64,000 nt of DNA from the NCBI RefSeq assembly GCF_026339935.1, contig NZ_JAPEPX010000001.1, positions 2,028,501 through 2,092,500 on the forward strand, written 5' to 3'. The translations under genes and the position numbers were made by a program. Shown piece after piece: positions 4,179 through 15,822 of this stretch (the stretch's first letter is position 1; each line of letters starts with the position of its first letter). A model generated the notes under the pieces. The model was not told the origin of the DNA. It made no database searches and worked only from the letters and a program-made list of their open reading frames with translations. Source of the stretch: Streptomyces sp. NBC_01551 (GTDB taxonomy: Bacteria; Actinomycetota; Actinomycetes; Streptomycetales; Streptomycetaceae).

Positions 4179-4180
4179 TA
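4179..4180 (+). repeat. Target-site duplication TA, left copy
   Basis: TA directly abuts the left end of the insertion sequence and recurs at 5514-5515. Removing the element and one copy restores the near-palindrome GCGGCTAGCCGC. Confidence 0.75.
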
Positions 4181-4195
4181 GGCCGTGTTTTAGAA
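4181..4195 (+). repeat. Left terminal inverted repeat of the IS
   Basis: GGCCGTGTTTTAGAA matches the reverse complement of 5499-5513 (GGTCGTGTTTAGACG) with one substitution and a one-base gap over the first 14 bases. Confidence 0.8.
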
Positions 4196-4223
4196 GTGAT
4201 CCCATGCCTTGCCGCGTGCCGTG

Positions 4224-5105
4224 ATGATCTCTGGTGTGGGGCGAGGGGACCTTTCTGACGAGCAGTGGGTAGTGCTGGAACCGATGCTGCCGGAGGCAGT
4301 TTCGGGCAGGCCGGCGGCATGTCGACGGAAGCTGATCAACGGGATCCGCTGGCGGGTGCGGACTGGCGTCCCATGGCGGGATCTGCCGCCGGAATACGGG
4401 CCATGGCAGACGGTCTACGGCCTCTTTCGCCGGTGGCAGCGAGACGGCACCTGGGCCGCCGTGCTCACTGGCTTGCAGGCGCGGGCGGACGCGGCCGGGT
4501 TGATCACGTGGGAAGTGAGTATCGACTCCACGATCTGCCGGGCCCACCAACATGCCGCAGGCGCCCGCCGTGCTGGAGCGTCCCAGAAGGAGTCACCGGG
4601 CGGGGTCCGGGTTGAGCCCGACGATCACGGCCTGGGCCGGTCCCGGGGAGGATTCACCACCAAGATTCATTTGGCCTGTGAGCAGGGGCAGCGTCCGCTG
4701 TCGCTGCTGGTGACCGCCGGGCAGCGTGGTGACAGTCCCCAGTTCACCGCGGTCCTGGAGGCCATCCGGGTGCCGCGCATCGGGCCGGGGCGTCCCCGGG
4801 TCCGTCCGGTGCGGGTGAGAGGCGACAAGGCGTATTCGTCCCGTGCCAACCGGGCCTACCTGCGGCGGCGGGGGATCCAGTGCACGATTCCCGAGCCGGC
4901 GGACCAGGTTGGGAGCCGAAAGCGACGTGGGCAGGCTGGAGGTCGACCTCCCGTCTTCGACCCTGAGGACTACAAGGCCCGGCATGCAGTGGAGTGCGGA
5001 ATCAATCGCCTCAAGCGCAACCGCGCGGTGGCCACGCGGTTCGACAAACTGGCCGTCCGTTTCGAGGCCACCGTCGTGGTCGCAGCGATCAACGAATGGA
5101 TGTGA
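4224..5105 (+). CDS. IS5-family DDE transposase
   Basis: A 293-residue transposase that cuts and joins the IS ends. The catalytic acids are Asp101 (in SIDSTICRA), Asp201 (in RGDKAYSS) and Glu257. The latter sits in a perfect Y-x2-R-x3-E-x6-K signature ([15 protein letters not shown]), which is diagnostic of the IS5/IS4 group. An N-terminal DUF4096-type region ([15 protein letters not shown]) precedes it. ATG 4224 is used, but GTG 4236 and TTG 4209 are also in frame and no ribosome site settles it. It is a single uninterrupted frame, unlike the frameshifted two-ORF transposases of some relatives. Confidence 0.92.
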
Positions 5106-5177
5106 CCGGACATTACTGTCACACGCGCGTGCCATCCTGACCCCTATCAGAGCGTGCAGACGAGGGGAGAGCAGCCA

Positions 5178-5483
5178 GTGGGCCGCCTGTACTACCGGGC
5201 AGACAGCGAGGACGGCGACCGAATCGACGACCCCTCCGAGGACGCGCTGTTCATGATGATCAGTGATCTCAACGGCTCGGACAACACCTTCGTCGTAGTC
5301 CAGCCCGACGAGGACGACCCCGTCTGGTTCGCCTCCGTCACCGTCGCGGGCGAACGCGGCTACGAGGTCGTCCGCCGCGATACCTCTCGGAACGAGCACG
5401 AGGTCACCATGGCAACCAGCATCAACGACATCGCCCGAGACCTCACCGTCTGGATGGCCGCCCGGCACTTCCCTGGCCGGTAG
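5178..5483 (+). CDS. Passenger ORF inside the IS: small acidic protein of unknown function
   Basis: A 101-residue acidic protein beginning GRLYYRADSEDG, with predicted alternating strands, a GYEVVRRDTSRNEH segment and a C-terminal helix (DIARDLTVWMA). GTG 5178 is chosen because AGGGGAGA lies 7 nt upstream; a longer start at 5154 has none. The stop is 30 bp from the right terminal repeat, so the gene lies fully inside the element. I do not recognise the family. The layout is loosely like small immunity-type proteins, but that is a weak impression and not an assignment. Confidence 0.7.
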   Translation: MGRLYYRADSEDGDRIDDPSEDALFMMISDLNGSDNTFVVVQPDEDDPVWFASVTVAGERGYEVVRRDTSRNEHEVTMATSINDIARDLTVWMAARHFPGR

Positions 5484-5498
5484 CCAGAACAATCACCA

Positions 5499-5513
5499 CG
5501 TCTAAACACGACC
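5499..5513 (-). repeat. Right terminal inverted repeat of the IS
   Basis: CGTCTAAACACGACC is the inverted partner of 4181-4195 and is followed by the second TA duplication copy at 5514-5515. Its last base also supplies the third base of the neighbouring kinase stop codon. Confidence 0.8.
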
Positions 5514-6673
5514 TAGCCGCGCGGGAGGGTGGCCACCACCGTGTACGAGTCCGGCGTGCGCGTCGCCGTCAGGGTGCCGCCCAGGCTGCGCACGCGCTCG
5601 GACATGCTCGCGGTGCCCGAGCCCGCCGAGACGGGGGCGCGGGCCGGGACGCGGGCCGGGAGGCCGTTGCTGACGGCGATCCGCAGCTGGGGGCCGTCGG
5701 CGGCGATGGAGACCTCGATGGTCTCGCCGTGGGCGTGCTTGGCGGCGTTGGTCAGGCATTCCTGGACGACCCGGTAGACCGCCGCCTGCCGCAGCGGCGA
5801 CAGCCCGTGCACCTCGGGGTCCATGACCAGCCTGACGGGCGAGCCCGCCCGCCCGCTCTCCTCCGCGAGCGCCGCCAGCCCGTCCGCTCCCGGGGTCGAG
5901 GCCCGCTCCCCGCGCTGCACGATGATCTCGTTGAGCACCAGGTGCGCCCGCCGCGCGGTGTCGGCGAGTTCCTCGAAGTCCTTCGCGTACGCCGTCTCGC
6001 GCGACCGCATCGAGAGCACCTCGGAGCGCACCGTCAGCAGCGTCAGCTCCCGCCCGACGAAGTCGTGGACGTCCCGCGCGACCGAGGTGCGCTCCTGCTG
6101 GACGGCCTGGAGCACGGCCGACTCGGCCCGGCGGACGTCGAGCTCGCGCACCAGGTCGTGCCGGTAGGCGGCGATGCCGACGGCCGTGGCGAGCGCGCCG
6201 ATGGGCACGACCAGGCTGAGGAAGGAGCTCAGGTCCTGGCCGGCGGGCTCGGGCCAGCCCGGCACGCAGAACATGGCCAGCGCGAAGGCGACGTAGCCGA
6301 CGGTGGCGAGGATGCCGGCCCGGCGCCCCCGGTAGCGGCCGACGGAGTACAGGGCGAACTGGATCAGCGTCAGCTCGTGCAGCCACCCGATGAAGACCAG
6401 GGCCACGGCGTACGCGATCCACGGCATCCGGCGCCGCGCGAGCAGGCTCGTACAGCCGACGGCCAGCACGGCGGCGGCGCTCGGGCCGCTCAGGGAGTTG
6501 TCGGCGGCGGCGAGGCCGGGCAGGTCGAGGGCCATCAGGGCGAGGCAGCTCAGGGCCGTGAGGACGTCCAGTGCCCGCGGGGACCCGGCCCAGCTCTCGC
6601 TCAGGCGGCGGCCGGCGGCCACGACCCGGTGGAGCGCCGAGGCGGCGGGCTTGACGTGCATGCCCTCCATCAT
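5513..6673 (-). CDS. NarL-type (HisKA_3) sensor histidine kinase, orphan
   Basis: A membrane sensor kinase of about 386 residues with five or six N-terminal transmembrane helices (residues about 20-155). A HisKA_3 dimerisation box follows with the phospho-acceptor His203 in ARDVHDFVGREL. The HATPase domain has the N-box TNAAKHAHG and the G-box segment SMSERVRSLGG. It autophosphorylates and normally passes phosphate to a LuxR-type response regulator, but none is adjacent on either side. The start is uncertain: ATG 6673, 6670 and 6661 are clustered. The TAG stop overlaps the IS target duplication, and its last base comes from the IS end. Confidence 0.85.
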   Translation of the reverse strand: MMEGMHVKPAASALHRVVAAGRRLSESWAGSPRALDVLTALSCLALMALDLPGLAAADNSLSGPSAAAVLAVGCTSLLARRRMPWIAYAVALVFIGWLHELTLIQFALYSVGRYRGRRAGILATVGYVAFALAMFCVPGWPEPAGQDLSSFLSLVVPIGALATAVGIAAYRHDLVRELDVRRAESAVLQAVQQERTSVARDVHDFVGRELTLLTVRSEVLSMRSRETAYAKDFEELADTARRAHLVLNEIIVQRGERASTPGADGLAALAEESGRAGSPVRLVMDPEVHGLSPLRQAAVYRVVQECLTNAAKHAHGETIEVSIAADGPQLRIAVSNGLPARVPARAPVSAGSGTASMSERVRSLGGTLTATRTPDSYTVVATLPRG

Positions 6674-6754
6674 CCGTGGTCGGCTCCGCGAACGCCTCGG
6701 CCGACTGGTGGATAGAACGTGATATGCCGCACTCCGGACATCACGGCATCGCCG

Positions 6755-6786
6755 CATCGCGACGTCACGGCATCGCGACGTCACGG
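6755..6786. repeat. Tandem 16-bp direct repeat in the kinase promoter region
   Basis: CATCGCGACGTCACGG occurs twice head to tail (6755-6770 and 6771-6786). A degenerate partial copy lies just before (around 6738-6750). Each unit contains the palindrome GACGTC. It lies in the 148-bp gap between the pyrophosphorylase stop and the kinase start, where a regulator site would be expected. Confidence 0.7.
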
Positions 6787-6821
6787 CATACGGCCCCGGG
6801 CAGGCCGCCCCGGCCCCGGCC

Positions 6822-7919
6822 TCAGGAGGCCAGGACCGCCGGGGCGGCGGAGACGCGGACCGCGTGCGCCGGCAGCCGGACCCCGCAGTCGATGCGCAGA
6901 CCCGCCGTCAGCTCGTTGTCCGGGCCGATCACCGCGCCGTCCCCGACCACCGTCGAGAGCAGGACGCTGCCCTCGCCGATGGCGGCGTGCGCGCCCACCA
7001 CGGAGCTGCGCACCAGGCCGCGCGCCGCGATCCGGGCGCCGGGCAGCACGACGCTGGCGTGCACGACCGCCCCCGCCTCGATGACGGCGTCCTCGCAGAC
7101 GACGGTCCCGCCGCTGAGCCGGGCGCCGGGATCCACCCGGGCCCCGGGCAGGACCAGCGCCTCACCGACCGGGCCGGGCAGCGCGGGCGAGGAGACGAGA
7201 CCGCGTACGAGATCGGCGGAGCCGCGTACGAACGCCTGGGGCGTGCCGAGGTCGAGCCAGTAGCCGTCCTCGACGACTCCGTTGACCAGGGCTCCGTCGG
7301 CGAGCAGCGCCGGGAACGTCTCGCGCTCGACGGACACCTCCCGGCCGGCCGGGATGGTGTCGATGACGGAGCGGGTGAAGACGTAGCACCCGGCGTTGAT
7401 CTGGTCGGTGATGATCTCGGCCTCGGTCTGGGGCTTCTCCAGGAAGGCCCGTACCCGGCCGTCCGCGTCGGTCGGGACGAGCCCGAAGGCGCGGGGGTCC
7501 TCGACGCGGGTGAGGTGCAGGGTGACGGCCGCCCCGGATGCCGTGTGGGCTTCCCGCAGTCCGGCGAGGTCCACGCCGGAGAGGATGTCGCCGTTGAAGA
7601 CGAACACCGGCTCGCCGGGGCCGCAGGTGAGCAGCTCCGCGGCGTTGCGGATGGCCCCGCCGGTGCCGAGCGGGACGTCCTCCTGGGCGTAGACCAGTTC
7701 CAGGCCGAGCGAGGAGCCGTCCCCGTACTCCGCCTCGAAGAGCTCGGCGAGGTAGGAGGTGGCCAGCACCAGCCGGGTCACCCCGGCCGCGGCGGCGCGC
7801 GCGAGCTGGTGGGTGAGGAAGGGGACCCCGCCCACCCGCAGCAGCGGCTTCGGGGTGTGGGTGGTCAGCGGCCGGAGTCGGGTCCCCTTGCCGCCGACCA
7901 GCAGGATTGCCTCGCTCAT
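6822..7919 (-). CDS. NDP-sugar pyrophosphorylase (mannose-1-phosphate guanylyltransferase-like)
   Basis: A 365-residue nucleotidyltransferase. The N-terminal domain begins MSEAILLVGGKGTRLRPLT with the G-G-x-G-T-R-L-R-P loop that binds the nucleotide, then PKPLLRVGG and FNGDIL. The C-terminal third is a left-handed beta-helix of hexapeptide-like repeats (GARVDPGARLSG...). Family members make GDP-mannose, dTDP-glucose or similar from the sugar 1-phosphate. With an Egghead-like mannosyltransferase in the same operon I infer GDP-mannose as the likely product. It starts 34 nt after the GH113-like gene, in a three-gene operon. Confidence 0.85.
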   Translation of the reverse strand: MSEAILLVGGKGTRLRPLTTHTPKPLLRVGGVPFLTHQLARAAAAGVTRLVLATSYLAELFEAEYGDGSSLGLELVYAQEDVPLGTGGAIRNAAELLTCGPGEPVFVFNGDILSGVDLAGLREAHTASGAAVTLHLTRVEDPRAFGLVPTDADGRVRAFLEKPQTEAEIITDQINAGCYVFTRSVIDTIPAGREVSVERETFPALLADGALVNGVVEDGYWLDLGTPQAFVRGSADLVRGLVSSPALPGPVGEALVLPGARVDPGARLSGGTVVCEDAVIEAGAVVHASVVLPGARIAARGLVRSSVVGAHAAIGEGSVLLSTVVGDGAVIGPDNELTAGLRIDCGVRLPAHAVRVSAAPAVLAS

Positions 7920-7953
7920 GCCGGGCGCGTCGCTTTCTCGTGGTGGGTGTCGG

Positions 7954-9219
7954 TCACGGCGCGGTGGTGCCCGGACCCGCGTAGTCGGAGCCGAAGCAGG
8001 TCCGGATGGCCTCTTCGGTCGCCGGACGTCCCGCGAAGTTGAAGCGGGACTCCGATTCCTTGGGCGCCTTGCGGGGGTTGGAGTCGAAGTAGATCGACCA
8101 CCAGTACACGCCCGCCAGCTTGCGCTGCTGCACGACCTGGCAGACCGCCTCGTACCAGTTGGCCTGCACCTGCGGGTTGACCTTGCGCTTGGTGTAGAAG
8201 TCGCCGGGCGAGTGGTAGGCCCCGTCCATGGCGCTGATGCCCGCCTCGGCGAGAAGGATCTTGGGCAGCGGGCCCTTGCCCTTCTTGTCGAGCCACGTGT
8301 TCCAGCCGTCCACGAGCCGGCCGACGGGTGCGTCGTCGTCCACCTTCACGGGGAAGTAGGCGTCCACACCGAGCCGCTTGACGGGGACGTCGATCTTGCC
8401 GGTCGAGAAGTTGTCCCAGTTGGCGTCGTAGGAGATCTCGCCCGTGAAGTGCTTGCCGGCCGCGGAGATCAGGGGCTTCCAGCCGGCCTGCCCCTCCATG
8501 GAGTTCAGCTCGGTGCCGAGCACGAAGGTCGACACCTGCTCGCGCTGCGCCACCTGGAGGTAGGGGGCCAGGAAGGCCTCGTACGAGGCGAACCAGGCGG
8601 CCTTGTCGGACGGCTTGATGTTGCCCCGCCAGCCCTCCGGCGGGATGAGCGAGGCCTCGTCCAGGATCGGGCGGACGGTGGTGCGCAGGCCCGCCTCGTG
8701 GAAGACGCGCAGGACCGTGTCGAGGTGCTCGGGGGTGGGGGTGTTCTTCCCGGCCGCGAGCTTCGTCGAGGTGCGGCCCTCCGTGTAGAAGGGGAAGGAG
8801 AGCGCGACCGAGTTGGCCTTCAGCCCGACGATGTAGTCGGCCTGTTCGCGGGCCTTCTTGGCGAGGTACTCCTCGCTGTGCTCCTTCTTGTCCTCCCAGA
8901 AGATCTGCACGCCCCACTCCGGCATGCCGGCCTTCCAGGGACTGGCCACCGTCTTGGCGGGCTTGGCGGGCTTGGCGGACTTCCCGTCGCCGGAGCCTTC
9001 GCCGCCGTCGGCGAGCAGAGCGTCACCGTCGCCGCCGCCCTTGGCATCGGAGTCGTTGAGGACCACGATCGGCTTGAAGGAACCCGCCTTCCAGCGCAGC
9101 GGGTGGTCGCCGATCACGAACGGCAGGCCGAGGACCAGGGAGGTCACGGTCACCGGCAGGATCGCGAGCAGGGGGACCTTGGAACGCTTCTTCTTCATGA
9201 CGGGCTTCCGGTTGCTCAC
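7954..9219 (-). CDS. GH113-like glycoside hydrolase, membrane-anchored or secreted
   Basis: A 421-residue protein with a positively charged N-terminus (KKKR), a single hydrophobic segment (residues about 15-35), an Asp/Gly/Lys/Pro-rich linker and a TIM-barrel-like domain. Candidate catalytic acids are Glu237 in LGTELNSME and Glu325 in LLAEAGIS, the spacing expected of a clan A retaining hydrolase. It resembles GH113, a family of beta-mannanases, so it may trim the polymer made by the adjacent transferase outside the membrane. GTG 9219 overlaps the upstream TGA stop (GTGA), implying translational coupling; ATG 9198 is an alternative start. Confidence 0.78.
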   Translation of the reverse strand: MSNRKPVMKKKRSKVPLLAILPVTVTSLVLGLPFVIGDHPLRWKAGSFKPIVVLNDSDAKGGGDGDALLADGGEGSGDGKSAKPAKPAKTVASPWKAGMPEWGVQIFWEDKKEHSEEYLAKKAREQADYIVGLKANSVALSFPFYTEGRTSTKLAAGKNTPTPEHLDTVLRVFHEAGLRTTVRPILDEASLIPPEGWRGNIKPSDKAAWFASYEAFLAPYLQVAQREQVSTFVLGTELNSMEGQAGWKPLISAAGKHFTGEISYDANWDNFSTGKIDVPVKRLGVDAYFPVKVDDDAPVGRLVDGWNTWLDKKGKGPLPKILLAEAGISAMDGAYHSPGDFYTKRKVNPQVQANWYEAVCQVVQQRKLAGVYWWSIYFDSNPRKAPKESESRFNFAGRPATEEAIRTCFGSDYAGPGTTAP

Positions 9220-10667
9220 GCGGGCTTGGCGATGACGACGAACTTGTTCTCTTCGCGCTTGATGAACTTGATCAGCCCACGCAGGCCGCCCAGTCCCTCC
9301 ATCACGGAGAACAGCGGAATGAGGCCGAGCACCGCGATCGGCTCCCACCAGCGGCGCTTGCCGTCCGCGGAGACCAGGGAGTTGAGCCGCAGCCCCTCCC
9401 AGTACGTCCAGATGACGTACGCGAAGCTCAGCGACCACATGATCACGACGGACTGGGTCACGGGCGAGGTGTTGAAGTCACCGATGAACCAGGCCACGAG
9501 CAGGACCGTCGCGACGTGCTGGAGCGGGCCGAGGACCCAGCTGACCATGCAGAGCATCAGGAACCAGCGGTAGCGGAAAGGCACCGTCCGGTTGAAGCAG
9601 AGCGCGACCAGGCCCCAGGCCCAGCGCTCGCGCTGCTTGATGAAGTCCCTGGTGTTGGCCGGCGAGGCGCCGTAGCAGCGGCCGTTGAACCAGTCGCTGC
9701 GGCCGGGGTACTTGCGGCAGAACGTCAGCGCCAGCTGCGCGTCCTCGACGATGGCCTTGGGCCCGAAGTCCCAGCCGATGGTGGCCTCGATGGAGGCGCG
9801 GAGCAGCAGCAGCTCGCCGTGCACGCCGGCGACGGGGGTGCCCAGACCCGTGAAGGCCCGGAAGCGGGCTATGTCGTCGGCGGGCCGCACCGCGTCGGCC
9901 AGCCAGGTGAAGCGGTTGACCGCGTTCTCGCGCGGGTAGGCCAGGATGCCCTGCGCCATGTGCTTGGCCTCGTCGCCTGCGCGCCGCTGCCGGTTGATGA
10001 ACTGGGCCATGGAGGCAGCGGTGTCGGGGCCGACGCCGGTGTCGTCGTCCATGTGGAGCACCCAGACGTCGTCGAGGGCCTCGCCCTCCTCGATCCGCAG
10101 CTCGTGGGCGTAGTTGTTGGCCCGGGCCTTGAACCGCGTCCCGTTCGCCGTCTCGTACACCTTGGGTACGGCGACCACCCGGATCAGCGGGTTCATCGCG
10201 GCGAGCCCGTCGATCCGCTCGGTCGCCTCGCAGCCCTCCTCCGTGAGCACGTCGACCCGCATCCGCGGGAAGTACGGCGGGAGGTGCTCCACGTAACTGA
10301 GGACCGAGCGCTCCAGCGCCGGGTAGGTGTCGTGGCGGCCGATGGTCGGCACGAGCACGACGAGGAAGTCCTCCTCGACCGGGGCCGCCGGGACCATCTC
10401 GTGCGACTTGCGGACCCGGCGGCGGATCAGCAGGACGCCCTGGAAGCCGACCAGCACACCGATCGCGGGCAGCGACCAGATCACCGACAGCGTCCAGCCC
10501 AGCGGAGTCGGGTTCGGCTCGAACACCCAGAGGCCGAAGCTGACGAGGACCAGGAAGGGCAGCAGGAACGCCAGCACGCTGGGCTTCCAGTCTGCATGCC
10601 GCTGAACGATCTTCGCGTCGCGCCGGGACGTGGGGGGCGCGACTTCTTGAACGGGGACGGGGGACAT
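9216..10667 (-). CDS. Egghead-like GT2 glycosyltransferase (putative beta-1,4-mannosyltransferase)
   Basis: A 483-residue membrane GT2 enzyme. Two N-terminal helices (residues about 32-50 and 60-82) are followed by a cytoplasmic catalytic domain with the metal-binding MDDD (206-209), the catalytic-type VED (308-310) and QRERW (345-349). Several C-terminal helices end the protein. From memory its segments parallel animal Egghead (MAQGILAYPRENAVN, DFIKQRERW and a terminal NKFVVI), which adds beta-1,4-mannose from GDP-mannose. Product length and acceptor are unknown. It is first in the operon, after a terminator, with AAGGA 9 nt before ATG 10667. Confidence 0.82.
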   Translation of the reverse strand: MSPVPVQEVAPPTSRRDAKIVQRHADWKPSVLAFLLPFLVLVSFGLWVFEPNPTPLGWTLSVIWSLPAIGVLVGFQGVLLIRRRVRKSHEMVPAAPVEEDFLVVLVPTIGRHDTYPALERSVLSYVEHLPPYFPRMRVDVLTEEGCEATERIDGLAAMNPLIRVVAVPKVYETANGTRFKARANNYAHELRIEEGEALDDVWVLHMDDDTGVGPDTAASMAQFINRQRRAGDEAKHMAQGILAYPRENAVNRFTWLADAVRPADDIARFRAFTGLGTPVAGVHGELLLLRASIEATIGWDFGPKAIVEDAQLALTFCRKYPGRSDWFNGRCYGASPANTRDFIKQRERWAWGLVALCFNRTVPFRYRWFLMLCMVSWVLGPLQHVATVLLVAWFIGDFNTSPVTQSVVIMWSLSFAYVIWTYWEGLRLNSLVSADGKRRWWEPIAVLGLIPLFSVMEGLGGLRGLIKFIKREENKFVVIAKPA

Positions 10668-10731
10668 AAGGAGTGGTCCTTCTGGATTCGCCGGGTCAGC
10701 TCGCGCTGGGGCGGTGTCTGCTGGGCGTGGC

Positions 10732-10778
10732 GGCGGCGGCCCCCGGGAACGGGTGGGGCGTTCCCGGGGGCCGCCGCC
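10732..10778 (-). terminator. Very stable hairpin terminator after the P/Q-tailed membrane protein
   Basis: A perfect 19-bp inverted repeat (10732-10750 with 10760-10778) with a 9-nt loop. It separates the membrane-protein gene from the glycosyltransferase operon, so the latter needs its own promoter in the roughly 65 bp that follow. Confidence 0.85.
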
Positions 10779-10784
10779 CGCCGC

Positions 10785-11570
10785 CTACTGCTGGGGCGGC
10801 TGCTGGGGCTGGTCCTGCGGCTGCGCGGGCTGCTGCGGCTGCTGCCAGGGACCGCCGTACGGGCCGGCGGTGCCGTAGCCGGGCTGCGGCTGGCCGTAGC
10901 CCGTCTGGGGCTGCTGCGACGGGGGCTGCGGGGGCTGACCCTGCTGCTGCGGCAGGGGCTGCGGCTGGGCGTAGCCGGTCTGCGGCTGCTGCGGGTACTG
11001 CTGCGGGGCCCCGTACGGCGGCTGCGGCTGCTGCTGGGCCGCCGCGCGCTGCGCCGCCTCGTGGGCCTGGCGCGCCTCGTGCGCCTGCGCGCTCCAGGGG
11101 TTCACCGGGGGCTGCCACGGCTCGTAGGCCGCGAAGTCTCGGAGCAGCAGCACGATGAGAGCGATCGTCACGAGGAACCCGACGGCGAAGGTCGTCAGCT
11201 TCAGCCCGCCCTGGAGGGTGTTGGTGAAGTAGTCGGTCTGCTTCGCGTCGAACAGCGCGCCGGTCAGGCTGCGCGTGCGGTTGTAACCCTCGATGGCCGC
11301 ACCGCCGATGATGACGCCCCGGCCGAGGGTGTTGCCGCGCAGCACCAGCAGGCCGCCCGCGACGTAGACGATGCCCCAGTTGAGGTTGAAGGTCTCGGCG
11401 GCACCGGAGCCGTCGCCGATGCCGTAGTAGACGATTCCCTGCAGGAAATCGACGATGCCCACCTGCCAGAAGCAGTTGTACAAAGCCCAGATGAGCAGGA
11501 CGCCTGCCCAGCCCATGGCCACGAAAGCGGCTACACGGTGGGCGCGCGGCGTTGAGGCGGTCAACTTCAC
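10785..11570 (-). CDS. Integral membrane protein with long Pro/Gln/Gly/Tyr-rich C-terminal tail
   Basis: About 261 residues. The first 145 hold four or so hydrophobic helices (residues about 13-30, 58-75, 78-95 and 125-145). The remainder is a low-complexity tail of QPQ, PQQ and GYGQP repeats, very likely disordered. No enzymatic motif is seen. It lies between the GH26 gene and the glycosyltransferase operon, so it could be an assembly or scaffold protein of the same locus; this is inference. GTG 11570 directly abuts AGGAG, whereas TTG 11564 sits 5 nt after it and may be the true start. Confidence 0.75.
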   Translation of the reverse strand: MKLTASTPRAHRVAAFVAMGWAGVLLIWALYNCFWQVGIVDFLQGIVYYGIGDGSGAAETFNLNWGIVYVAGGLLVLRGNTLGRGVIIGGAAIEGYNRTRSLTGALFDAKQTDYFTNTLQGGLKLTTFAVGFLVTIALIVLLLRDFAAYEPWQPPVNPWSAQAHEARQAHEAAQRAAAQQQPQPPYGAPQQYPQQPQTGYAQPQPLPQQQGQPPQPPSQQPQTGYGQPQPGYGTAGPYGGPWQQPQQPAQPQDQPQQPPQQ

Positions 11571-11656
11571 TCCTATTCAACTTCCCCGACAGGGTCTGGC
11601 CGGCCAGTGGTGCCTGGTCCGGACCCTCCGAAGCATCCCATCTGAAAATAACGAAA

Positions 11657-13018
11657 CTACGACGTTCCCTCGTGCAATGAGGGCCAACTCACACCCGTGG
11701 GGCCGGTTTCCTTGCCACCGATGACCGTCTTCGGGTCGTTGTACGTCCGCTCAACGTCCTTTGCGGAATTCTTCGCTGTCAGTCCGTCACCCCAGACGGT
11801 CCATAGGACCCAAGGGGCGTCGTCGAGCGTCGTGCGCTGCTTGGCGTTGAGCGGAACGTGGAAGGACTCCGCCAGGATCCGCGGTTTTCCGTAGTCCTTG
11901 AGCTCCCGGTGCCACTTCGACGTCCAGCCGCCCTTGCCGAACGGTTGCTCAGGTGAACCGCTGTAATCGTCGACCCCGACCACGTCCACGTAGTCGGCGC
12001 CCGGGTAGAAGTCCCAGGGTTCGACGCCGTGGAGGCCGTCCCAGGCCGTGGGCGCCCACACGAAGATGAGGTTGTGCAGCCCGCGCGAGCCCACCAGGTA
12101 GTGGTACAGCAGCTCCCAGAGCTTCACGAACTGCTCGGGCTCCAGGCCCGCCCACCAGAAGCGGCGCTCGTCGTCGATCGCGTTCATCTCGTGGTACGGC
12201 CGCAACAGCACCGGCACGTCGTGGGCGGCCAGGTATCCGAGGTGGTCCGCGAGGAACGACAGGTCGAGCAGCAGCGCCGCGTGCTCCGTCGTGCCGGGCG
12301 TCAGGACCCGGTCGATCCACCGGGGGTCCTTCGCCGCCGGGGACTTGCCGCGCATCGTGTGCTCGAAGCTCTTGACCGGGCTGCCCGGCCACGGCTGGTG
12401 GAACGACATGCCGACCAGGCCGGCCGGCGCTCCCCCGTTGGTGGGCAGCACTGTCTTCGAGCCGGTCCAGATCTTCTCGGTGCCGGTCGGGTTGTACGAG
12501 CCGTCGGCCGGGCGCGGCAGTCCGTGCCAGACGCCCATCGCGAGGTCCACGACGTCGTTCGTGTAGGCCCAGAACTCCTGCCGGGCGGGCCAGGCGGCGC
12601 GCGAGTAGTCCCGCGGTTCGCCCACGCCCCAGCTGCCTTGCTGGTAGCCGGGGCCCAGGTCCAGTTCGAGGAAGCCGGGCAGCTTCCCGGTGATGTCCTG
12701 GGGCTTGCGGTAGTAGTACCCGGGCACCTTGGGGCCGTTGTGGTCGCCGTACTCCGGGTTGTACCGCTCGTTGTGGACCTCGGCGTGCTGGCCGATGATC
12801 GTGCCGCGGCGGTGGCCGGCGCGGGCGTCGGCCTCCAGCGCGGCCAGCAGCTTGTAGACGGCCCGCGCCGTGTCGCAGGCCCTGGGGTCCCGTGACACCA
12901 GGTCCTTCTGCAGGCCCTTGTCGGCCGGGCGCGACGTGCTGAAGGCCGCGACCCCGGCGAGCGTGCCTCCCATGGCGGCGGTCGCAGCCGCCCCGATGAG
13001 GACATTGCGACGCTTCAT
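11657..13018 (-). CDS. GH26 beta-mannanase-type glycoside hydrolase, exported
   Basis: A 453-residue secreted hydrolase. The N-terminus MKRRNVLIGAAATAAMGG has a twin-arginine-like pair and a hydrophobic core, suggesting Tat or Sec export. The GH26 core shows FHQPWPGSP, the acid/base Glu277 in LLRPYHEMN, FVWAPTAWDG, a VDVVGVDDYSG strand and the nucleophile Glu384 in ILAESFHVP. Most characterised GH26 enzymes are endo-beta-1,4-mannanases. ATG 13018 is preferred because it gives a clean signal peptide. The gene is 86 bp upstream of the P/Q-tailed membrane protein gene. Confidence 0.88.
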   Translation of the reverse strand: MKRRNVLIGAAATAAMGGTLAGVAAFSTSRPADKGLQKDLVSRDPRACDTARAVYKLLAALEADARAGHRRGTIIGQHAEVHNERYNPEYGDHNGPKVPGYYYRKPQDITGKLPGFLELDLGPGYQQGSWGVGEPRDYSRAAWPARQEFWAYTNDVVDLAMGVWHGLPRPADGSYNPTGTEKIWTGSKTVLPTNGGAPAGLVGMSFHQPWPGSPVKSFEHTMRGKSPAAKDPRWIDRVLTPGTTEHAALLLDLSFLADHLGYLAAHDVPVLLRPYHEMNAIDDERRFWWAGLEPEQFVKLWELLYHYLVGSRGLHNLIFVWAPTAWDGLHGVEPWDFYPGADYVDVVGVDDYSGSPEQPFGKGGWTSKWHRELKDYGKPRILAESFHVPLNAKQRTTLDDAPWVLWTVWGDGLTAKNSAKDVERTYNDPKTVIGGKETGPTGVSWPSLHEGTS

Positions 13019-13200: not shown

Positions 13201-15822
13201 CTACGCGGGCGGCAGCGCGTCCAACTGGGCCTGGATCCGCGCGATGTCGGCCCCGGCCTTGGCCAGCCGGTCCTTGATCTTGTCGACCACGTTGTCCGGG
13301 GCCTTGGCGAGGAACGCCTCGTTCCCGAGCTTCGCCTCGGCCTGCTGCTTCTCCTTCTCGGCGGCGCCGAGGTCCTTGGAGAGCCGCTTGCGCTCGGCGG
13401 CCACGTCGATCGTGCCCGACAGGTCCAGCGCGACCGTGGCACCGGCGACCGGGAGCGTCGCGGTGGCGCTGAAGGAGTCACCCTCCGGCTGGAGCCGCAG
13501 CAACTGCCGGATGGCGCCCTCGTGCGCGGCCAGCGGCGTGCCGGCCAGGTCCAGGCGGGCCGGAACCTTCTGGCCCGGCTGCAGACCCTGGTCGGCGCGG
13601 AACCGGCGGACCTCGGTGACGACGGCCTGGAGGTTCTCGATCTCGGCCTCGGCGGCCTCGTCACGGAACCCGCTGTCCGAGGGCCACTCGGCGATCACGA
13701 CGGACTCGCGGCCGGTGAGGGTGGTCCACAGGGTCTCGGTGACGAACGGGACCACCGGGTGCAGCAGGCGCAGGGTGACGTCCAGGACCTCACCGAGGAC
13801 CCGCGCGGAGACCTTGGCCTGCTCGCCGCCGGCGAAGAACGTGGTCTTCGACAGCTCGACGTACCAGTCGAAGACCTCGTCCCACGCGAAGTGGTAGAGG
13901 GAGTCCGACAGCTTCGAGAACTGGTAGTCCTCGTAGAAGGCGTCGACCTCGGCCACCGTCTTGTTCAGACGGGACAGGATCCAGCGGTCGGTGGCGGACA
14001 TCCGCTCGGCCGGCGGCAGCTCGCCCTCGACCGTGGCGCCGTTCATCATCGCGAAGCGCGTGGCGTTCCAGATCTTGTTGGCGAAGTTGCGGGACGCCTG
14101 GACCCAGTCCTCGCCGATCGGGACGTCGACGCCCGGGTTGGCGCCGCGCGCCAGGGTGAAGCGGACGGCGTCGGAGCCGTACTTGTCCATCCAGTCGAGC
14201 GGGTTGACGGCGTTGCCGAAGGACTTCGACATCTTCTTGCCGCGCTCGTCGCGGACCATGCCGTGCAGGGCGATGGTGTGGAACGGCGGGGTGCCGTCCA
14301 TCGCGTAGAGGCCGAACATCATCATCCGGGCGACCCAGAAGAAGAGGATGTCGTAGCCCGTGACCAGGACGGAGTTCGGGTAGAACTTCGCGAGGCTCTC
14401 GGTCTGGCGCGGCCAGCCCATGGTGGAGAAGGGCCACAGGCCGGAGGAGAACCAGGTGTCCAGGACGTCCGTGTCCTGGGTCCAGCCCTCGCCGGCCGGC
14501 GGCTGCTCGTCGGGTCCGACGCAGACGACCTCGCCGTTCGGGCCGTACCAGACGGGGATGCGGTGGCCCCACCACAGCTGGCGCGAGATGCACCAGTCGT
14601 GGAGGTTGTCGACCCAGTCGAAGTAGCGCTTCTCCATCTCCTGCGGGTGGATCTTGACCCGGCCGTCGCGGACCGCGTCACCGGCGGCCTTGGCGAGCGG
14701 GCCGACCTTGACCCACCACTGCATGGACAGCCGCGGCTCGATGGTGGTCTTGCAGCGCGAGCAGTGGCCGACGGAGTGGGTGTACGGGCGCTTCTCGGCG
14801 ACGATCCGGCCGTCGGCGCGCAGCGCGGCGACGATGGCGGAGCGGGCCTCCAGCCGGTCCAGGCCCTGGAAGGGGCCGTGGGCGGTGATGATCGCGTGCT
14901 CGTCCATGACCGCGAGGTTCGGCAGGTTGTGGCGCTGGCCGATCTCGAAGTCGTTCGGGTCGTGCGCCGGGGTCACCTTGACGGCGCCGGTGCCGAACTC
15001 GGGGTCGACGTGCTCGTCCGCGACGACCGGGATGCGGCGGCCGGTGAGCGGCAGCTCGATCTCGGTGCCGACGAGGTGCTTGTAGCGCTCGTCCTCGGGG
15101 TGGACGGCGACGGCCGTGTCACCCAGCATCGTCTCGGCGCGGGTCGTCGCGACGACGATGGACGCTTCCCCGTCGCCGTACCGGATGGAGACGAGCTCGC
15201 CGTCGTCGTCCTGGTACTCGACCTCGATGTCGGAGATCGCGGTCAGGCAGCGCGGGCACCAGTTGATGATGCGCTCGGCGCGGTAGATCAGCTCGTCGTC
15301 GTAGAGCTTCTTGAAGATGGTCTGGACGGCCTCGGACAGGCCCTCGTCCATGGTGAAGCGCTCGCGGGACCAGTCGACACCGTCACCCAGACGGCGCATC
15401 TGCCCGGAGATCTGCCCGCCGGACTCGCCCTTCCACTGCCAGACGCGCTCGACGAACGCCTCGCGGCCCAGGTCGTGGCGGGACTTGCCCTCCTTGGCGA
15501 GCTCGCGCTCGACGACGTTCTGGGTGGCGATGCCGGCGTGGTCCATGCCCGGCTGCCACAGGGTCTCGAAGCCCTGCATGCGCTTGCGGCGGGTGAGGGC
15601 GTCGATCAGGGTGTGCTCGAAGGCGTGCCCCAGGTGGAGGCTTCCCGTGACGTTCGGCGGCGGGATGACGACGGTGTACGGAGCCTTGTCGCTCTTCTCG
15701 TCCGCCTCGAAGTAGCCACGCTCTACCCAACGCTCGTAGAGCTTCCCCTCTACCTCGGCCGGCGCGTACTGGGTCGGCAGTTCGGAGTTGGGGCTGCTGG
15801 GTGTCTGCGTGTTCTCGGTCAC
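13201..15822 (-). CDS. valS: Valyl-tRNA synthetase
   Basis: Class I aminoacyl-tRNA synthetase that charges tRNA-Val and edits mis-activated threonine. The 873 residues carry the HIGH-type motif in [12 protein letters not shown] near residue 55 and KKMSKSFGN for ATP binding. A large CP1 editing domain lies between them, with an anticodon-binding domain and a C-terminal coiled coil ([13 protein letters not shown]) for tRNA contact. The start is GTG 15822. It is divergent from the membrane protein at 15951 and ends in a strong hairpin. Confidence 0.97.

Follow-up and report, generated by a model that had tools for sequence, protein, structure and literature searches.

A Streptomyces gene cluster that probably makes and trims a beta-1,4-linked mannose-containing polymer

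What does a Streptomyces genome make with a membrane glycosyltransferase that stands among hydrolases of mannanase families? The question arises in a 64,000-nucleotide stretch of Streptomyces sp. NBC_01551 (contig NZ_JAPEPX010000001.1, positions 2,028,501 to 2,092,500; the window), in which five genes occupy positions 6822 to 13018. An earlier reading of the letters alone, the sequence-only reading, had taken them for a pathway that makes and trims a beta-mannan-type polymer. All five open reading frames were confirmed on the minus strand, where that reading had placed them, and four of the five proteins exceed the cut-off of a curated family model, the membrane protein being the exception. 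The locus probably encodes an exopolysaccharide system of the synthase-dependent type, whose product would be a beta-1,4-linked polymer containing mannose (mannan or glucomannan) and which includes a cognate hydrolase. The proposal of a polymer made and trimmed is supported by the curated guanylyltransferase model NF052502, by conserved and presumably catalytic glutamates, by co-occurrence of the genes across genomes, and by the exchange of mannanase families beside the synthase. From these we infer the sugar, the linkage and the polymer. The features of the locus are as follows.

6822..7919, minus strand: mannose-1-phosphate guanylyltransferase (GDP-mannose pyrophosphorylase), second copy in the genome; NF052502, 493.8 bits
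7954..9219, minus strand: GH113 glycoside hydrolase with an N-terminal hydrophobic, anchor-like segment; PF22612, 108.3 bits
9216..9219, minus strand: GTGA overlap of the GT2 stop codon TGA and the GH113 start codon GTG; read directly
9216..10667, minus strand: membrane-integrated GT2 glycosyltransferase, 483 amino acids; PF13632, 80.1 bits
10732..10778, minus strand: 20-bp perfect hairpin in the interval between the membrane-protein gene and the GT2 gene; folding, z −6.49
10785..11570, minus strand: accessory membrane protein with a Pro/Gln-rich tail; without a Pfam family
11657..13018, minus strand: GH26 glycoside hydrolase, probably exported; PF02156, 88 bits

Mannanase families beside the probable synthase

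The neighbors of the GT2 gene were compared in 80 loci, the best 80 of 90 tblastn-confirmed relatives from a scan of named genomes. These favor close relatives, because they were fished with two conserved peptides, and they are not 80 independent cases, because they share descent and two of them (L070 and L098) come from one genome. Neighbor distances count only the best match per query and locus, at an E value of 1e-5 and within 5 kb. At least one mannanase family lies within this distance in 77 of the 80 loci, and in 63 of the 65 that include 3 kb of sequence on each flank; by family, GH113 is present in 63, GH26 in 45 and GH5 in 12. In all 60 pairs with both genes called, GH113 comes directly after GT2 on its strand, with a gap of at most 59 bases in 54. 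It also adjoins GT2 in all 15 full loci fetched from the genus and family, at least nine of which are the same places as members of the 80, and likewise in a decayed locus.

The association holds in the other direction as well. When 121 genomes sampled from the genus were searched with the Pfam GH113 model at an E value of 1e-3, 12 matches of 74 to 109 bits lay exactly at the 12 GT2 places and no locus-type GH113 lay away from them. Eleven further matches (186 to 199 bits, in 11 genomes) lie elsewhere and belong to a different group, and the remainder score below 30 bits. The co-occurrence implied by the sequence-only reading is thus borne out, and in our judgment such regularity among neighbors is not expected by chance.

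The strongest evidence for a beta-1,4-mannan-type product is that one GT2 is found with unrelated hydrolases that point to one specificity. Ten loci of Dactylosporangium and Planosporangium have GH5 without GH113. The GH5 protein of one of them, L106 (Dactylosporangium), matches beta-mannanase 1bqc best among PDB chains (2.6e-111); six of its eight matches at or below 2.6e-64 are named mannanase, and the next match is CelA at 2.5e-08. Three Dactylosporangium genomes of 8 to 12 Mb hold four to five such GH5 genes each (at least 290 bits), so a chance GH5 neighbor is conceivable but improbable. In both genomes besides that of L106, the linked copy is once more the best match to the L106 protein (92% and 66%). 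GH26 stands without GH113 in L111, L114 and L119 (Actinopolymorpha, Planosporangium) and in L105, with a full PF02156 domain in L111 (212 bits) and L114 (223 bits). The Frankia-type loci L122 and L127 combine GH113 with a different GH5, that of L122 being closest to GH5 mannanase 8gf3 (5.7e-122). GH113 and GH5 also occur together in all three in-family loci L140 to L142, of which only L142 is new, since L140 is the place of L122 and L141 that of L129; in L141 the distance to the GH5 mannanase relative is slightly over 5 kb. A tree of GT2 proteins was built from the window, the 75 loci in which a GT2 was called and two outgroups (their branches too long to be trusted); on it the hydrolase label changes several times, also inside one clade.

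A sister GT2 group, scoring 173 to 258 bits in a broad profile search, serves as a control. GH113, GH26 or a tested GH5 lies within 5 kb in none of its eight loci (L143 to L150, with L143 and L146 on short contigs); L146 has a weak GH5 match (24.8%) beyond that distance. An AT3-type acyltransferase is nearby in six of the eight (L144, L145 and L147 to L150), and an NDP-sugar dehydrogenase stands directly beside GT2 in L145 and L150, the two inspected. The L145 dehydrogenase matches UDP-glucose dehydrogenase (2.9e-39) and GDP-mannose dehydrogenase (2.4e-37) in the PDB. Locus L047 is of the same type, its GT2 being about 40% identical to most of those in L143 to L150, and at 8385-12959 it encodes an NDP-sugar dehydrogenase of the UDP-glucose/GDP-mannose kind and an AlgG-like mannuronan epimerase (4ozz, 6.4e-17). 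In L044 to L046, likewise distant, comparison with the window's own proteins gave no GH113 or GH26 match. By these sequence matches the sister group looks partly alginate-like in context, again mannose chemistry, and its actinobacteria are possible makers of alginate or mannuronan.

The locus is a patchy trait, mobile or often lost, and the gene set recurs in many genomes at different chromosomal places. GT2 is present in 11 of the 121 genus genomes, as a decayed remnant in one of them (G014), at 12 places because genome G046 holds two copies, and in 6 of 61 genomes sampled from the family, the window's own included. The phylum sample gave matches in 9 of 346 genomes, the other eight weak (27 to 37% identity). 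In the class sample the broad profile found 40 of 296: four above 700 bits, the window among them, the eight of the sister range, and others at or below 35. The locus lies beside a valS-like gene in the window, L015 and L057 to L062, and no such gene falls within the fetched stretch in other Streptomyces loci. A natural loss case is L025 (8668-9714, genome G014), the decayed locus, in which a large internal deletion of GT2 runs into GH113.

Several loci show variants of the arrangement. GT2, GH113 and a GH5 mannanase relative occur together in L122, L127, L129 and L142 (Frankia, Protofrankia and a further genome), a plant-symbiont context. In Micromonosporaceae (L121, L123, L124 and L126, at about 5500-12600, and L125) a GlxA-like/galactose-oxidase protein of some 691 amino acids lies near GT2 and GH113. 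These loci also hold a 182-residue protein and a PMT-like membrane transferase, with domains scanned in L121 only; in L125 the GlxA-like and 182-residue proteins are on the other strand. The arrangement parallels CslA-GlxA. Streptomyces locus L020 has a right-handed beta-helix protein with a K1-lyase C-terminal domain (6338-8365) in the usual place of GH26. In Pseudonocardia, the synthase, GH113 and acyltransferase genes are immediately followed by a gene for a beta-propeller Ser/Thr protein kinase (L130, 14491-17106; L131, 14450-18052), which possibly controls the synthase.

The proteins of the locus

PF13632 is the sole Pfam domain of GT2 (cut-off 27). The protein joins a GT-A domain and membrane helices in one unit, as do processive synthases of the BcsA and hyaluronan synthase kind, and has the DxD, ED and Q(Q/R)xRW residues of such enzymes. 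Residues D207, E308, D309, Q345, R346, R348 and W349 are invariant over 57 aligned rows, with identity down to 26%, and D208 and D209 are kept in at least 90% of them. The same 57-row alignment yielded a good structure model; one from 16 close sequences was poor (a mean confidence, pLDDT, of 59) and was not used. The predicted fold is cellulose/hyaluronan-synthase-like. BcsA chains are the two best Foldseek matches among those listed, and the model aligns with BcsA from residue 30 on, N-terminal membrane helices included. No Egghead- or plant CSLA-named row is among the matches listed in the fold comparisons, which excludes nothing, and a viral structure library gave only general GT2 folds among the matches listed. 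A PDB search with the single GT2 sequence found no match, while a profile found BcsA alone, at E values of 0.03 to 0.035. Membership among the BcsA cellulose synthases was considered and rejected: Pfam found no PilZ domain, and the CelA model scored 10.3 bits against a cut-off of 699.1. The host assembly (7.05 Mb) holds two other PF13632 proteins, neither of them found with the GT2 query, and no further GT2 relative at an E value of 1e-3. The GT2 is probably a polysaccharide synthase that uses GDP-mannose.

The gene at 6822-7919, which the sequence-only reading had called an NDP-sugar pyrophosphorylase and counted as part of the set, encodes a mannose-1-phosphate guanylyltransferase (Rv-type) by NF052502 (cut-off 440), with Pfam matches to NTP_transferase (159.6 bits) and hexapeptides. 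Its chemistry fits the set; its presence is not constant among relatives. It is an extra copy, since a 68% identical one (542.9 bits by NF052502) sits elsewhere in the genome. Where a relative has the gene within 5 kb, it is the second gene downstream of GT2, and examples score 449.9 (L067), 498.1 (L057) and 513.7 bits (L068) with the same model.

Both hydrolases retain the expected active sites. GH113 (PF22612 cut-off 27) has glutamates E237 and E325 aligned with E151 and E231 of mannanase 4cd6, which we take to be the acid/base and the nucleophile; neither glutamate varies in any of the 17 sequences aligned. GH26 (PF02156 cut-off 20.2) matches 6q75 (GH26A) best in the PDB (3.5e-19), 20 of its 31 matched chains bear a mannanase or mannosidase name, and its E277 (RPYHEMN) and E384 align with glutamates of GH26 structures, presumably catalytic, and are invariant in 9 of 9. 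No second GH26 relative was found in the host genome. The window GH113 has a hydrophobic segment at residues 18-36, and such a segment is present in 53 of 60 called relatives; a strict lipobox pattern fits 2 of the 60, and more lipoprotein-like ends (ATGC, SGGC, STGC) were seen by eye only. The GH26 N terminus is twin-arginine-like by eye, a signal not general among relatives (13 of 42 called genes, by a crude test with uncertain starts). As to the translational coupling of GH113 to GT2 once proposed, the 4-base overlap is real in the window; such −4 spacing is not general, occurring in only 9 of the 60 relatives with both genes called, where start calls are rough.

The remaining features are peripheral. 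The Pro/Gln-rich membrane protein, once thought to complete the set, is an accessory and not core: it has hydrophobic segments at 13-31 and 125-143, and homologues in only 12 of the 80 loci. The G+C-rich hairpin upstream of GT2 (−78.9 kcal/mol for the 133-nucleotide fold) may be a terminator or attenuator that separates the GT2 transcript from the upstream gene. It is imperfect in L057, and none comparable was seen by eye in seven other loci folded; because it is strong in the window yet not conserved, it is kept out of the mechanism. The neighbors of the locus, named from their translations, are the valS-like gene at 13201-15822 on one side and a histidine-kinase-like gene at 5513-6673 on the other. 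Beyond the latter, 4179-5518 is a likely insertion sequence with an IS5-like transposase frame (4209-5105, named by eye), a 109-residue frame (5154-5483) and matching ends near 4179 and 5518 seen by eye.

A probable pathway and its alternatives

The pathway would run in four steps. The guanylyltransferase would supply GDP-mannose, a step well supported by its family. GT2, judging by context and fold, would polymerize GDP-mannose from the inside and, in the manner of BcsA and hyaluronan synthase, export the chain by way of its own transmembrane helices. The membrane-anchored GH113 would then cut the emerging chain, which could serve release, the setting of length or the clearance of stalled chains, and the exported GH26 may remodel or turn over the finished polymer. 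Many relatives also encode an acyltransferase with a fused SGNH domain, which would add O-acyl groups to the chain. An AT3-type acyltransferase lies within 5 kb of GT2 in 42 of the 80 loci, and where AT3-SGNH proteins are present O-acylation of the polymer is likely; no acyltransferase gene was seen in the window locus.

Several observations weigh against a mannan product. Structure comparison leaves cellulose synthase, hyaluronan synthase and an archaeal mannosyltransferase tied within 1 Z, so the donor sugar cannot be separated by the fold of the GT2 model. Source labels of GT2 relatives are mixed: among 120 listed of 753 there are 13 egghead, 11 beta-1,4-mannosyltransferase and 8 cellulose- or PNAG-(poly-N-acetylglucosamine)-synthase-like labels, the others being unspecific or missing. 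GH26 also contains lichenases and xylanases, and both GH26 and GH5 include glucanases. Of the eight close PDB matches to the GH5 of L106, one carries the label Cellulose-binding family II and one the label Endoglucanase (4y7e). Three loci, L109, L135 and L132, have no mannanase-family neighbor, the last of them stopping at a contig end. The sister-type L047 has GH113 about 1.5 kb from GT2, which makes the control 1 of 9 if it is counted; because this alginate-like locus has GH113 too, GH113 alone is no proof of neutral mannan. The guanylyltransferase lies within 5 kb of GT2 in only 33 of the 80 loci and is missing beside it in five of the six nearest relatives (L058 to L062), where a kinase gene directly follows GH113 in its stead. 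This leaves our estimate unchanged, because a genomic copy can supply GDP-mannose, as shown for this genome and assumed for relatives. Finally, in one study (PMC9032380) seven soluble GH113s of clade 5 all failed to act on the mannans tested, as did one Streptomyces GH113, CCK30803.1, which may or may not be of the locus type.

These last results lend some weight to a modified mannose-type chain, of N-acetylmannosamine (ManNAc) or mannuronic acid, which GH113 and GH26 would cut in place of neutral mannan. A ManNAc-rich polymer is predicted for the GT2-GH113 operon of C. difficile (PMC7710045), the soluble clade 5 enzymes left mannans uncut, and sister loci L145, L150 and L047 have an NDP-sugar dehydrogenase, with the epimerase of L047 standing beside GH113. 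However, by Pfam and NCBIfam none of the five window genes encodes a dehydrogenase of this type, an epimerase or a deacetylase, the GH5 and GH26 proteins linked to GT2 in other lineages match mannanases, and the locus guanylyltransferase yields GDP-mannose rather than UDP-ManNAc, so a modified chain appears unlikely. Slightly less credible is a GT2 that makes no polymer but adds beta-mannose units singly to a lipid or a short glycan, in the way of Egghead and perhaps of PcManGT. The mannanase families that travel with GT2 mostly cut inside polymers, and an endo-acting mannanase has no clear role on a monosaccharide cap; the QRxRW residues and the BcsA match that takes in the N-terminal membrane helices also argue for a processive enzyme.

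The hydrolases could instead forage on plant mannan beside a GT2 with an unrelated product, as Streptomyces secrete mannanases when growing on plant material (PMC3978015). This reading was rejected on linkage and anchoring and is very improbable: the locus-type GH113 is tied one-to-one to GT2 at 12 of 12 places and is the next gene in every called pair, its N terminus is mostly anchor-like, and no sugar importer is among the window genes read or 40 scanned neighbor proteins of relatives. Least credible is a beta-glucan such as cellulose, with the hydrolases acting as broad beta-1,4 enzymes. The BcsA chains that lead the Foldseek matches listed, the glucanases within GH26 and GH5 and the Endoglucanase label among the L106 matches would suit it, but the PilZ domain was not found, CelA falls far below its cut-off, BcsA is reached by profile only at E 0.03, and mannanase names prevail among the L106 matches, with CelA only after them.

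A broader proposal, to which we give an even chance, is that the whole actinobacterial synthase family (Streptomyces, Kitasatospora, Dactylosporangium, Micromonospora, Pseudonocardia, Frankia) makes an O-acetylated, hemicellulose-like beta-1,4-mannan or glucomannan, the release enzyme having been exchanged repeatedly between four mannanase lineages (GH113, GH26 and two of GH5); for members associated with plants, Frankia among them, the polymer could imitate the wall of the host. If the mannan assignment is true, Actinobacteria would join plants and algae as dedicated makers of beta-mannan, a largely unstudied bacterial surface sugar, and a surface polymer would be named in antibiotic producers and plant symbionts. 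It would explain why these mannanases resemble biomass degraders and yet probably serve synthesis. The compact two-gene core of synthase and hydrolase would be easy to express and test, and (gluco)mannan synthases, difficult to investigate in plants, would gain a bacterial model. More generally, the replacement of one hydrolase by an unrelated one next to a given synthase suggests a route to reading that synthase's product from genomes alone.

Comparison with known systems

The chemistry proposed for the locus GT2 is that of plant CSLA (gluco)mannan synthases and animal Egghead, membrane GT2s that carry out beta-1,4-mannosyl transfer from GDP-mannose. Mannans have been reviewed (PMC12736695), and in the open-access PubMed Central literature no paper on an actinobacterial version of the locus was recognized, subscription papers lying outside this scope. 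A bacterial extracellular mannose polymer has a precedent in the glucomannan-type exopolysaccharide of Bacillus altitudinis SORB11, built of 4-linked beta-mannose and beta-glucose (PMC9523031), whose synthesis proteins, in the part of that paper available, are only genome-predicted. In Actinoplanes missouriensis the wps-1 exopolysaccharide cluster contains a GH26 gene and has a sporangium phenotype (PMC13390465); hydrolases of the sporangium matrix have been tested in Actinoplanes (PMC12691653). As described there, wps-1 differs in its proposed Wzx/Wzy-type pathway, another GT2 domain and a possibly sulfated polymer.

The cellulose systems, BcsA-BcsZ, the Streptomyces CslA-GlxA-CslZ and the clostridial CcsA-CcsZ, share with the locus a membrane GT2 of one fold and a cognate extracellular hydrolase. 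CslA-GlxA of Streptomyces lividans makes cellulose in vitro (PMC11022532), and a galactose-oxidase/GlxA-like oxidase lies within 5 kb of GT2 in 5 of the 80 loci. The clostridial cellulose locus has acyltransferases, as do many relatives here. The locus differs in that PilZ was not found, in its mannanase-family hydrolases and in the GDP-mannose enzyme of the window.

The closest parallels are the GT2-GH113 pairs noted in Bacteroidetes and C. difficile. GT2 genes lie near clade 5 GH113s in Bacteroidetes, where construction or remodelling of a polymer was suggested (PMC9032380), and in synthase operons such as that of C. difficile 630 the hydrolases are given a role in release (PMC7710045). Both resemble the window locus in a mannosyltransferase-like GT2 near GH113 with a proposed part in polymer building or remodelling. 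They belong to other phyla and have ManNAc or an unassigned substrate, whereas the actinobacterial loci have the GDP-mannose enzyme, GH26, and the exchange of GH113, GH26 and two GH5 lineages. The pairing itself was thus already noted; here it is probably that of a synthase and its cognate hydrolase, with mannan as the product.

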